Below are positions 31,031 to 34,277 of a DNA stretch of 64,000 bases, piece by piece. Position 1 is the stretch's first letter. Each line of letters opens with the position of its first letter. Source of the stretch: Advenella sp. S44 (GTDB lineage Bacteria; Pseudomonadota; Gammaproteobacteria; Burkholderiales; Burkholderiaceae_B); the NCBI RefSeq assembly GCF_002810445.1, contig NZ_NEXS01000003.1:124001-188000 (forward strand), written 5' to 3'. The notes under the pieces were generated by a model that did no database searches, had not been told where the DNA came from, and saw nothing but the letters and a program-made list of their open reading frames with translations. The position numbers and the translations under genes are program-made.

Positions 31031-31206
31031 ACCGTTGGCTGGTTATCAGCGCTGTGGCCAAGGCGCATGTCCTTCGCCACAGCGATAGGCTCCCCAAGCC
31101 CGTATCCTCGTGAACTGCCGTTGCGTCCACATTGTCCGCCCCGGTTTTCTGCATCGCCGCTACCCACAATGACATGGCATGACCATCGTCCACGAATTCC
31201 CCAGAA

Positions 31207-31273
31207 CATCGCCCATGACATCGCCCATGACATCGCCCATGACATCGCCCATGACATCGCCCATGACATCGCG
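31207..31273. repeat. 12-bp tandem repeat CATCGCCCATGA, five exact copies plus a partial
   Basis: Copies start at 31207, 31219, 31231, 31243 and 31255, and a partial copy follows. The unit keeps the reading frame and would encode tetrapeptide repeats on either strand, but no supported gene covers it. It lies about 95 bases before the metK leader. Confidence 0.97.
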
Positions 31274-31365
31274 GTCAGGGCCTTGCGGCCCAGCCGCCGC
31301 TCTTTTATCTACCGTCAACAGGGTTTTTCGGGCCTTCAGTGTCAAATTGTCTTAAAATGATTTCC

Positions 31366-31467
31366 GGTCGCTGAGTTAACCGACAACTTGCGGGGCGACG
31401 GCTGGAAACACAGAACACATGTCAGACTTGGCTTGTGTTCTTCCAGATACATTCCGCTAAAGCGTCG
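31366..31467 (+). promoter_or_regulatory. Candidate SAM-II class riboswitch upstream of metK, with an extra stem
   Basis: The leader holds the SAM-II landmarks in order: GCTGAGTTAACC (class form GNTGATTTAACC), CTTGCGG, a P1 return strand and CCGCTAAAG. P1 pairs GTCGC (31367-31371) with GCGAC (31395-31399). The pseudoknot helix pairs GCGG (31390-31393) with CCGC (31454-31457). Between them a strong hairpin pairs CTGGAA-GAACACA (31402-31407, 31413-31419) with TGTGTTC-TTCCAG (31434-31446), at the place where a P4 extension occurs in some SAM-II RNAs. A TAAAAT hexamer at 31353-31358 could be its -10. SAM binding would give feedback on SAM synthase. Confidence 0.65.
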
Positions 31468-31551
31468 CGCCAGTATCCATCCCATTCGGTGCTGCGCGTT
31501 CTTTTAAAGAATGTCGGTTTTGTTTTTTTGACACTATTAATTGGACGCAAC

Positions 31552-32718
31552 ATGGCCCACAACGATTTTCTCTTTACTTCCGAATCCGTTTCCGAAGGTC
31601 ACCCCGATAAGGTTGCTGACCAGATTTCCGACGCTATTCTTGATGCACTGCTTGAGCAGGATCCCAATTCCCGTGTGGCCGCCGAAACGATGTGCAACAC
31701 CGGGTTGGTCGTACTGGCTGGTGAAATTAGCACCAAGGCCAATATTGACTATATCCAGGTTGCACGCGACACCATTAAGCGCATCGGCTATGACAATACT
31801 GAATACGGCATTGACTACAAGGGCTGCGCGGTTCTGGTCGCCTATGACAAGCAGTCTCCCGATATTGCGCAAGGGGTAGATCGTAGTGAAGAAGACCTTC
31901 TGAACCAGGGGGCCGGAGACCAGGGCCTGATGTTTGGTTTTGCGTGCGACGAAACGCCTGACCTGATGCCTGCCCCGATCTGGTATGCCCATCGCCTGGT
32001 GCAGCGCCAGAGCGAACTGCGCAAGGACGGCCGGCTGCAATGGCTGCGTCCCGATGCCAAATCGCAGGTCACGTTCCGCTACGTCGATGGCAAGCCCGTG
32101 GAAGTCCATACCGTGGTTCTCTCAACCCAGCATTCGCCGGACATTTCCCAAAGCGATATCCGTGAAGCGGTGATTGAGGAAATTATCAAGCCCACGTTTG
32201 CCGAAGGCCTGATCACACCACAGACCAAGTTTCTGATTAATCCCACAGGCAAATTCATTATTGGCGGTCCTCAGGGCGATTGCGGCCTGACTGGTCGCAA
32301 AATCATTGTCGATACCTATGGCGGCGCATGCCCTCATGGCGGCGGCGCGTTTTCGGGCAAGGATCCGTCCAAGGTGGACCGTTCTGCAGCCTATGCGGCC
32401 CGTTATGTCGCCAAGAATATTGTTGCTGCGGGCCTGGCGCGCCAGTGCCAGATCCAGGTCAGCTATGCCATTGGTGTGGCCGAACCGATCAACATTACTG
32501 TGTATACGGAAGGCACCGGTGTGATCCCCGATGACGAAATCGCCAAACTGGTGCACGAGCATTTTGACCTGCGTCCACGCGGCATCGTTCAGATGCTGGA
32601 TCTGCTGCGTCCAATCTATTGCAAAGCTGCCGCCTATGGTCACTTTGGTCGCTCCGAACCCGAGTTCAGCTGGGAAGCGCAGGACAAGGCGGAGGTTCTG
32701 AAAAAAGCGATCGCTTAA
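31552..32718 (+). CDS. metK: S-adenosylmethionine synthase MetK
   Basis: MetK makes SAM from methionine and ATP. The 388-residue protein begins [19 protein letters not shown], with the ATP-binding GHPDK, and contains [32 protein letters not shown] and [10 protein letters not shown], all diagnostic. I start at ATG 31552; an in-frame extension to 31435 lies in the structured leader. It is followed by the SAH riboswitch and ahcY, so the methyl cycle genes are side by side. Confidence 0.97.
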
Positions 32719-32726: not shown

Positions 32727-32734
32727 CGTCGTGT

Positions 32735-32807
32735 CCTGAGGGGCGTTGCGACATGATCTTACGGTCATGCCAGGCTCAGGATACGATCAGGTAACGAACC
32801 GCGCTCA
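32735..32807 (+). promoter_or_regulatory. SAH riboswitch (ahcY motif)
   Basis: The leader matches the S-adenosylhomocysteine riboswitch closely: GAGGGGCGTTGCGAC, then CCAGGCTCAGG, then AACG-GCGCTC elements. P1 pairs CCTGAG (32735-32740) with CTCAGG (32775-32780); an inner CATGA-TCATG hairpin fills the middle; the 3' GCGCTC (32801-32806) can form the pseudoknot. In this class SAH binding turns expression on, matching its position before SAH hydrolase. Confidence 0.92.
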
Positions 32808-32882
32808 TCATATACTGCTTTGCTGGTCTATGGTGAGACGCAACTCACAGTCGGCATCGCAGTATGTTTCAGGATGAAAACT

Positions 32883-34277
32883 ATGACTGCTGATTACAAA
32901 ATTGCCGATATCGCGCTGGCCGACTGGGGCCGACGTGAACTGTCTATTGCCGAAACCGAAATGCCGGGCTTGATGGCCACGCGCGAAGAATTCGCCAAAT
33001 CCCAACCTCTGAAAGGCGCCCGCATTGCCGGCAGCCTGCACATGACTATCCAGACAGGCGTGCTTATCGAGACGCTCACTGCGCTGGGCGCGGAAGTCCG
33101 CTGGGCTTCGTGCAATATTTTCTCCACCCAGGATCACGCTGCGGCGGCCATTGCCGCCAGTGGCGTACCGGTGTTCGCCATCAAGGGTGAAACGCTGGCC
33201 GATTACTGGGAATATACCCACCGCATTTTCGACTGGCCGGGTGAGCAGGCCAATATGATCCTTGACGATGGCGGCGACGCCACCACCTTGTTGCATCTGG
33301 GCGCCAAGGCCGAAAAGGACATTTCCGTATTGGACAATCCGGGCAGCGAAGAGGAAACCGTGCTGTTTGCCGCGATTCGCGCACGACTGGCCACAGATGC
33401 GACCTGGTATTCGACCAGGCTGGCCAATATCATCGGGGTGACCGAAGAGACCACGACCGGCGTGCATCGCCTGTATCAAATGGCGCAAAAAGGCGAGTTG
33501 CAAGTCCCTGCCATCAACGTCAATGACTCGGTCACCAAATCCAAATTCGATAACCTGTATGGTTGCCGCGAATCGCTGGTAGACGGTATCAAACGCGCGA
33601 CCGATGTCATGGTGGCAGGCAAGATCGCCGTGGTCGCAGGCTTCGGCGACGTGGGCAAGGGCTGCGCCCAGGCGCTGTCCGCCCTGCGTGCGCAGGTATG
33701 GGTCACGGAAGTAGACCCGATCTGCGCGCTGCAGGCGTCCATGGAAGGCTATAGAGTCGTTACCATGGAAGAGGCAGCGGACAAGGCCGATATCTTTGTC
33801 ACAGCAACCGGCAATTATCATGTGATTACCCGTGATCATATGGAACGCATGAAAAACGAAGCCATTGTCTGCAACATTGGTCACTTCGACAACGAGATCG
33901 ATGTGGCTGCGGTCGAAGACCTGCAATGGGAAGAGATCAAGCCGCAGGTAGATCACATTATCTTTCCCGATGGCAAGCGTATTATTCTGCTGGCCAAGGG
34001 CCGTCTGGTGAATCTGGGTTGCGCAACAGGCCATCCTTCATTTGTGATGTCGGCCTCGTTTACCAACCAGACGATCGCACAGATCGAACTGTTTACCCGC
34101 ACGGACCAGTATCAGAAAGGTCAGGTGTATGTGCTGCCCAAACATCTGGATGAGAAGGTGGCTCGCCTGCATCTGAAGCAACTGGGCGTCAACCTCTCAA
34201 CGTTGTCGCAGAAACAGGCCGACTATATCGGAGTGCCGGCGCAGGGTCCATTCAAGCCGGATCATTATCGTTATTGA
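32883..34277 (+). CDS. ahcY: Adenosylhomocysteinase AhcY
   Basis: AhcY splits SAH, the product inhibitor of methyltransferases, into homocysteine and adenosine. The 464-residue protein carries NAD-binding [11 protein letters not shown], the substrate segment [13 protein letters not shown], and the C-terminal KPDHYRY that binds NAD in the partner subunit. I chose ATG 32883, because AGGA at 32871-32874 is correctly spaced for it; ATG 32874 overlaps that site. The insert near residues 160-200 is usual in bacterial long forms. It is controlled by the SAH riboswitch upstream. Confidence 0.97.

Follow-up and report, generated by a model that had tools for sequence, protein, structure and literature searches.

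Which signal controls metK, the gene for methionine adenosyltransferase, in beta-proteobacteria? In the available text of Leyn et al. 2014 (PMC4239095), the one comparative study found, no methionine regulator is known for beta-proteobacterial metK, the authors' search for one failed and control of SAM synthetase is left open. In the window, by which we mean the whole 64,000-nucleotide stretch analysed here, metK (31552–32718; TIGR01034, 600 bits) follows a leader for which the original prediction proposed a SAM-II riboswitch with an inserted stem and a competing downstream pairing. We find that 31367–31467, together with the rest of the leader, is probably a divergent SAM-II riboswitch that acts on metK by controlling its Shine-Dalgarno sequence, an assignment that draws on the recurrence of the element, covariation, retention of pocket positions and the metK context. 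If so, the element offers a direct and testable answer on metK control for much of Burkholderiales.

Re-reading of the leader (31353–31551) placed each motif at its reported position: GCTGAGTTAACC at 31370, CTTGCGG at 31387 and CCGCTAAAG at 31454, and also AACCGACA at 31378, TGTCGGTT at 31512 and TTTTGTTTTTTT at 31518. The SAM-II order of these motifs, P1, the pseudoknot, the hairpin insert and the metK context were likewise supported. All features lie on the forward strand. P1 consists of 5 bp plus a terminal U-G and joins GUCGCU (31367–31372) to GGCGAC (31394–31399), two strands that covary. It is followed by the L1 third strand GAGUUAA (31373–31379), the equivalent of GAUUU in canonical SAM-II loci, and by CGAC (31381–31384), which pairs with GUCG (31464–31467) to form P2b, a second part of the pseudoknot that was absent from the original description and that covaries in relatives. 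CUU and the 5′ pseudoknot strand GCGG occupy 31387–31393, with GCGG at 31390–31393 pairing to CCGC at 31454–31457; the latter runs directly into the ligand-pocket UAAA (together 31454–31461). Between the pseudoknot strands, L3 (31400–31453) carries the inserted hairpin, whose sequence is variable: 50 such inserts from the family measure 12–57 nt and have a median z of −3.25 relative to mononucleotide shuffles, with 46 of the 50 below −1. On the minus strand, the L3 hairpin (31412–31445) weakly matches the 3′ hairpin of the sRNA Atu_C9 (20.7 bits, cut-off 40), which we take as chance.

The flanks of the aptamer contain further elements. A family-specific stem, P3, pairs GCGUCGCGCC (31462–31471), which overlaps P2b, with GGUGCUGCGC (31488–31497), forming 9 pairs in 50/50 leaders. 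Downstream, a candidate anti-Shine-Dalgarno segment, GCGUUC (31496–31501), pairs with the Shine-Dalgarno region of metK, GGACGC (31543–31548), once the aptamer is masked. Upstream, the −10-like box TAAAAT (31353–31358) has similar counterparts in the family leaders inspected and, if it serves as a −10 element, would place the transcript start just 5′ of P1; a sigma-70 promoter scan detected none. Short tandem repeats, GACATCGCCCAT, lie at 31200–31275, 5′ of the metK promoter region.

In the proposed mechanism, the aptamer (31367–31467) would fold as an H-type pseudoknot built from P1, P2a and P2b, bind SAM in a U-A.U triplex pocket and carry an additional hairpin within L3. At high SAM the pseudoknot would be locked and the metK Shine-Dalgarno sequence held in a helix with the upstream anti-Shine-Dalgarno segment, reducing SAM synthetase; at low SAM the aptamer would open and metK would be translated. 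In the SAM-bound RNA, GAGUU and UAAAGCGUCG would be expected to be protected. Several lines of evidence bear on this reading.

First, the element recurs. A blast search with 31340–31560 hit 235 of the 268 genomes from the family, which represent 40 of the 43 genera, and these matches, together with covarying P1 and pseudoknot pairs, argue that the motifs are not there by chance. Among 50 non-redundant family leaders, the core, comprising GAGUUAACCGACAACUUGCGG and YCCGCUAAAGCGUCGCGCC, is near-invariant; the L3 insert and the downstream loops are variable. A covariance model trained on the window's family (R1) found matches in 115 of 250 order genomes (67 of 121 genera) and an order-wide aptamer model (R2) in 194 of the 250 (102 genera), counts that include canonical-type copies and for which gene context was examined for part of the matches. 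Among such canonical-type copies are locus L191, which precedes a metX-like ORF, and a weak R1 match in genome G309 that RF00521 likewise matches, at 31.5 bits. Genera with the element include Bordetella, Achromobacter, Burkholderia, Cupriavidus, Ralstonia, Massilia, Oxalobacter, Dechloromonas, Accumulibacter and Sutterella. Within the window's own genome the metK copy alone is clear by R1; a second candidate at C8:667914–668018 (R1 17.1 bits, R2 E 0.007) reads like coding sequence and was rejected. More widely, R2 matched 114 of 229 class genomes, and 43 of 249 genomes of the phylum contain an RF00521 match at or above the cut-off; the two samples differ.

Second, the helices covary. From 135 parsed loci, with L178 and L192 giving no parse and L050, L060, L143 and L167 left out as being in the wrong register, 130 rows remained; visual inspection identifies L178 and L167 as relatives whose L1 has changed. 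The order-wide alignment A3 retains 88 of these rows, with duplicates removed and at most 10 from the window's family (f1, in which L078 and L100 were counted). Across its 88 sequences, 90.4% of the cells in P1, P2b and the pseudoknot are paired and 11 of 14 pairs change on both sides, giving 133 cells with both-side changes compared with 42.2 in shuffles (0/500 shuffles as good) and 44 or fewer in controls with slid partners. Both-side changes are found in all six P1 pairs (89.7% of cells paired) and in three of the four P2b pairs (84.3%), the outermost P2b pair being weak (formed in 50/87 in A3 and in 38/78 named loci). Relatives show CGAC/GUCG, GAAC/GUUC, CAAC/GUUG and AGAC/GUCU in P2b and GCGG/CCGC, GCAG/CUGC and GCGA/UCGC in the pseudoknot. 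Even in the 50 family leaders the outer P1 pair alternates (G-C 26, A-U 21, G-U 1, unpaired 1, gap 1), and the inner pair varies as well (C-G 47, U-A 3).

The same helices form in loci from named organisms, retrieved with a pattern that fixes the 5′ half only; at least 120 stretches matched, 80 were kept as loci, and these partly overlap the genome set (the first 1,800 bases of L002 lie within L285, from Advenella sp. FME57). In 78 named loci, the third pseudoknot pair is formed in 77 and the fourth in 76, and A-U takes the place of G-C in 15 and 13, respectively; three P2b pairs form in 75–76; and five of the six P1 pairs form in 73–78, the outermost in 66. Alignment of metK leaders among relatives, which had been proposed as a check, thus yielded abundant compensatory changes in P1, P2b and the pseudoknot, and by this comparison the leader almost certainly adopts a SAM-II-type fold.

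Third, comparison indicates that the positions of the ligand pocket are kept. According to the available text on the SAM-V structure (PMC6061858), the ligand is held by U47 and A50, its sulfonium faces U9 and U20, and U8 meets the adenine end of SAM. In our own mapping, U47 and A50 correspond to the U and the third A of UAAA, U9 to the second L1 U and U20 to the second U of CUUGC. All eight pocket letters (UU of L1, UU of CUUGC and UAAA) are present in 86/90 R1 matches (85 loci), with UUGC aligned in 86 and UAAA in all 90. Three of the misses (L175, L181 and L190) are alignment gaps caused by inserts, in loci where UUGC is present; the fourth, L192, lacks the letters and looks like a false match. 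We took pocket conservation from R1 matches because the text pattern behind the 130 rows itself demanded (G/U)UU, UUGC and GCUAAA. As R1 was trained on the window's family and rewards pocket letters, the count least affected by circularity is that of GCTAAA, present in 78 of the 80 named loci, whose retrieval pattern did not contain it.

One pocket position varies. The last two U of L1 occur in 90/90 R1 matches, and the preceding letter, equivalent to SAM-V U8, is G in 54 (and in the window), U in 34, A in one and a gap in one, so the fit of the ligand is not certain. The same fold might instead serve another ligand, SAH or a further adenosyl compound, as the frequent G at the adenine end would allow; the SAM/SAH class, in the available text of PMC2864571, shows that metK leaders can use a non-discriminating pocket. 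We consider this highly improbable. The two uridines whose O4 faces the sulfonium in the available description of SAM-V are unchanged in at least 86 of the 90 matches, and a separate Rfam-grade SAH riboswitch stands before ahcY. In addition, G and U both precede metK (89 and 13 rows, among rows that admitted G or U only), so the swap does not follow the gene. A tie between this swap and the gene had been considered, U being found in 17 of 28 non-metK rows and, among the 102 rows assigned to metK, in 13; both letters occur in both groups and we make no such claim. We infer that SAM is bound by the aptamer and is very probably its ligand.

Fourth, comparison links the element to metK. A MetK start motif lies 3′ of it in 70/70 family loci, and tblastn placed metK there in 60/90 order loci, composed of 21 in a 30-locus set that includes 7 of the window's family and 39 in 60 loci chosen among the R1 matches listed. 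The corresponding figure for named loci is 73/80, with 4 of the other 7 running off the record, and the rows taken as metK span 13 families. In a class-wide search, metK was next, among the 30 loci read, only in the window's own locus and in two of family f49, from the same order. The next ORF in about 20 of these 30 loci reads like what we take to be a trans-sulfuration enzyme, often with a terminator-like hairpin.

The very high conservation within the family, which extends to the 10-nt P3 arm GCGUCGCGCC in 50 aligned leaders, could also reflect a leader structure bound by a protein or the ribosome and not a riboswitch. This reading is extremely unlikely, given that conservation falls on the residues of the SAM-II pocket and that the fold keeps the SAM-II register to within one base: among 25 canonical SAM-II loci fetched with RF00521, the best register of P2b is the same in 11 and shifted by a single base in the other 14 (13 earlier, 1 later).

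The assignment to a divergent SAM-II riboswitch is made against a silent Rfam. With cmscan and Rfam 15, no SAM family was found in the leader even at E 10, nor at gathering score anywhere in the 64-kb window, and the covariance search proposed in the original prediction therefore returned neither a SAM-II nor a SAM-V match in the leader. The RF00521 cut-off of 36 bits is not reached in the window, and the best relatives score 19.0 and 20.4 bits; one locus in a first set of 20 and two in a second are the only ones that reach E 10 with this model. L140 and L187, relatives that lack the L3 hairpin, can be aligned with RF00521 over its whole length and in the right register (20.4 bits), the other 18 loci of that set having no SAM match at E 10. 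L054, which has the hairpin, scores 19.0 bits with a misregistered P1, and the 19 other loci of its set give no match. The L3 hairpin thus probably adds to Rfam's miss, although hairpin-less relatives escape Rfam too.

Against the known classes, the element is closest to SAM-II (SAM_alpha, RF00521), with which it shares P1, the L1 sequence GA(U/G)UU, CUUGC, GCUAAA, a P2b that begins 1–3 nt after GCUAAA and the link to SAM and methionine genes. It differs in its low RF00521 scores, the frequent G for the first L1 U, the weak outer P2b pair, the metK target, the L3 hairpin in the window's family and the anti-Shine-Dalgarno segment beside the pseudoknot in other families. SAM-V (RF01826) shares the pocket and, as far as the available text of PMC6061858 goes, is translational, with a P3 hairpin absent from canonical SAM-II and a Shine-Dalgarno sequence usually inside P2a, in contrast to its location here, about 75 nt downstream of the pseudoknot; RF01826 matched neither the window nor the two sets of 20 relatives. 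SAM-II long loops (RF01726), compared by name and listing, is a SAM-II with enlarged loops, listed for Bacteroidetes and marine sequences in the available part of PMC2864571, and gave no match here. The SAM/SAH riboswitch (RF01727) is also a small pseudoknot before metK, described only from Rhodobacterales in the same portion of that paper, and had no match in the leader at E 10. Finally, the metXZ element of Leyn et al. 2014 (PMC4239095) shares, in the available text, the beta-proteobacterial methionine genes and a pseudoknot with an alternative pairing, and is placed before metX or metZ with a terminator; it is probably canonical-type SAM-II.

The original prediction had regarded SAM-II in a betaproteobacterium as unexpected. 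This view found no support: the available text of Barrick and Breaker 2007 (PMC2258182) speaks of SAM-II in alpha- and beta-Proteobacteria, and the same genome carries a canonical, Rfam-grade copy (51.5 bits) that lies some 55 nt upstream of a metX-like gene (TIGR01392, 460 bits, below the family cut-off of 500). On both grounds the class is to be expected here. The unusual points are the target, metK, and the divergence of the element, and the divergent form linked to metK appears to be new: no prior description was found in the open-access literature, with supplements outside the scope of the search, and holders of SAM-II alignments may already have these sequences.

How, then, would the aptamer act on metK? 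Of 92 metK leaders with a start codon, 49 lie outside the window's family and 43 within it. In the 49, the 15 nt right after P2b pair with the leader's own Shine-Dalgarno region at a mean of −10.8 kcal/mol, compared with −7.7 kcal/mol with partners from other families; none of 2,000 permutations is as good, and the own partner is better in 11 of 12 families. Family f19 shows no excess at this site. A neighbouring control segment gives no signal (−5.7 versus −5.8 kcal/mol; 1,405/2,000 permutations). The paired segments change together, for example as CCUGCUC/GAGCAGG, CAGGCUC/GAGCCUG and CUUCUCC/GGAGAAG, and this comparison provides good evidence that hiding of the Shine-Dalgarno sequence is the output outside the window's family.

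Inside that family the platform appears to be rebuilt. The site after P2b is taken by GCGUCGCGCC, which forms stem P3 with GGYGCNRCGC, paired in 50/50 leaders with one-sided changes only, and anti-Shine-Dalgarno sites are found further downstream. Across the 43 family leaders the anti-Shine-Dalgarno signal is weaker: the own partner is better in 12 of 22 genera, though 0/2,000 permutations are as good. With stem P3 and different anti-Shine-Dalgarno sites, the platform is less certain here than elsewhere.

Folding energies show neither the coupling nor its direction, because masking the real aptamer does no better than masking a shuffled one. Masking, calculated for all but one of the 92 leaders, lowered access to the Shine-Dalgarno region by a mean of 1.37 versus 1.16 kcal/mol for shuffles outside the family (26/48 leaders above shuffles) and 0.50 versus 0.68 kcal/mol inside it (19/43); it had first looked positive as evidence for direction and was dropped. 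That SAM binding would be coupled to the Shine-Dalgarno helix so as to turn translation OFF is reasonably likely, on the strength of pathway logic and the position of the anti-Shine-Dalgarno segment. A decoy scheme, in which the 3′ pseudoknot strand is duplicated and the extra copy competes for GCNN, also found no support, since it does not separate own from foreign partners (−10.76 versus −10.74; 791/2,000 permutations as good). A narrower version, limited to the 4-nt strand, reached 0/2,000 and 9/13 families, but the energies differed by just 0.2 kcal/mol and the median rank was 0.61, and it was left unused.

A SAM-II-type aptamer could also have a transcriptional output, with an intrinsic or Rho-dependent end in place of Shine-Dalgarno hiding. 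Canonical-style relatives before other methionine genes (L191 and many of L230–L251) have, by eye, terminator-like hairpins and T runs, the tandem loci L157 and L176 have a terminator-like hairpin after the first copy, and in the window a T run follows TGTCGGTT. The original prediction had joined that T run to the perfect 8-bp complementarity of AACCGACA (31378–31385) and TGTCGGTT (31512–31519) in a terminator-like pairing. Both the complementarity and the T run are present; the mechanism found no support. Among 10 genus loci, six have the full 8-bp match and four a match of 5 bp (GTCGG). Of 60 other leaders in the family, eight contain GTCGG, and five of these (L007, L008, L014, L024 and L025) match over 7–8 bp. 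The seven-T run is peculiar to the window's own genome and missing from nine other genus leaders, L002–L006 carrying TTTTGTTTTGACAC and the other four having no such run. With arms 126 nt apart and a T run that is not kept, the pairing is unlikely to be a terminator, and as a conserved mechanism we reject it. A scan limited to loops of 3–8 nt found no forward-strand terminator-like site between the aptamer and metK. In addition, a complement of the Shine-Dalgarno region directly follows the pseudoknot in 11 of 12 other families. A transcriptional output is improbable, and translational control remains our preferred reading.

The pairing of AACCGACA with TGTCGGTT may nonetheless have a role within the genus or lineage. 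It is included in the unconstrained minimum-energy fold of the window leader and would occupy the L1/P2b strand, making TGTCGGTT a possible anti-aptamer strand of the SAM-free state. In this capacity it would favour expression and not termination, and the difficulty that the original prediction saw, a direction opposite to feedback, would vanish.

On the SAM-II reading, the curated covariance model misses a large SAM-II branch, and one genome holds two different SAM-II sensors whose set points could be compared. A broader proposal, tentative and in our view rather unlikely, is that a distinct SAM-II lineage, often with G for the adenine-facing U and with the anti-Shine-Dalgarno segment beside the pseudoknot, is the main metK feedback across Burkholderiales and that, compared with the canonical metX switch, its affinity is tuned or its discrimination between SAM and SAH altered. 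If true, two unequal SAM sensors in one cell would divide the pathway.

Other observations concern the surroundings of the element. The SAH riboswitch, the sole riboswitch called in the 64 kb at Rfam gathering score (52.9 bits), lies at 32732–32813, directly 5′ of an ahcY-like ORF (32820–34277), and the SAM and SAH switches thus share one gene neighbourhood. In 18 loci (L081, L085, L088, L091, L093, L096, L099, L134, L139, L144, L155, L157, L160, L164, L165, L167, L168 and L176) the element is followed by a small ORF of about 85–115 aa, as counted from M(F/Y)DC; Pfam matched none of five examples, and NCBIfam none of four, above a curated cut-off. A MatE-family ORF then follows in L081 (PF01554, 84 bits), as it does on visual reading in L096 and L099. 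Tandem SAM-II-type elements precede the small ORF in L157 (G363), L176 (G270) and L093 (1636–1737 beside 1501–1572); in L157 and L176 the first copy leads into its terminator-like hairpin and the second into a Shine-Dalgarno sequence. Among the gammaproteobacterial SAM-II-like leaders L230–L251, GCUAAAGC in many complements a CUUUAGC-like segment before a T-rich hairpin, a pairing that is likely to act as an anti-terminator.
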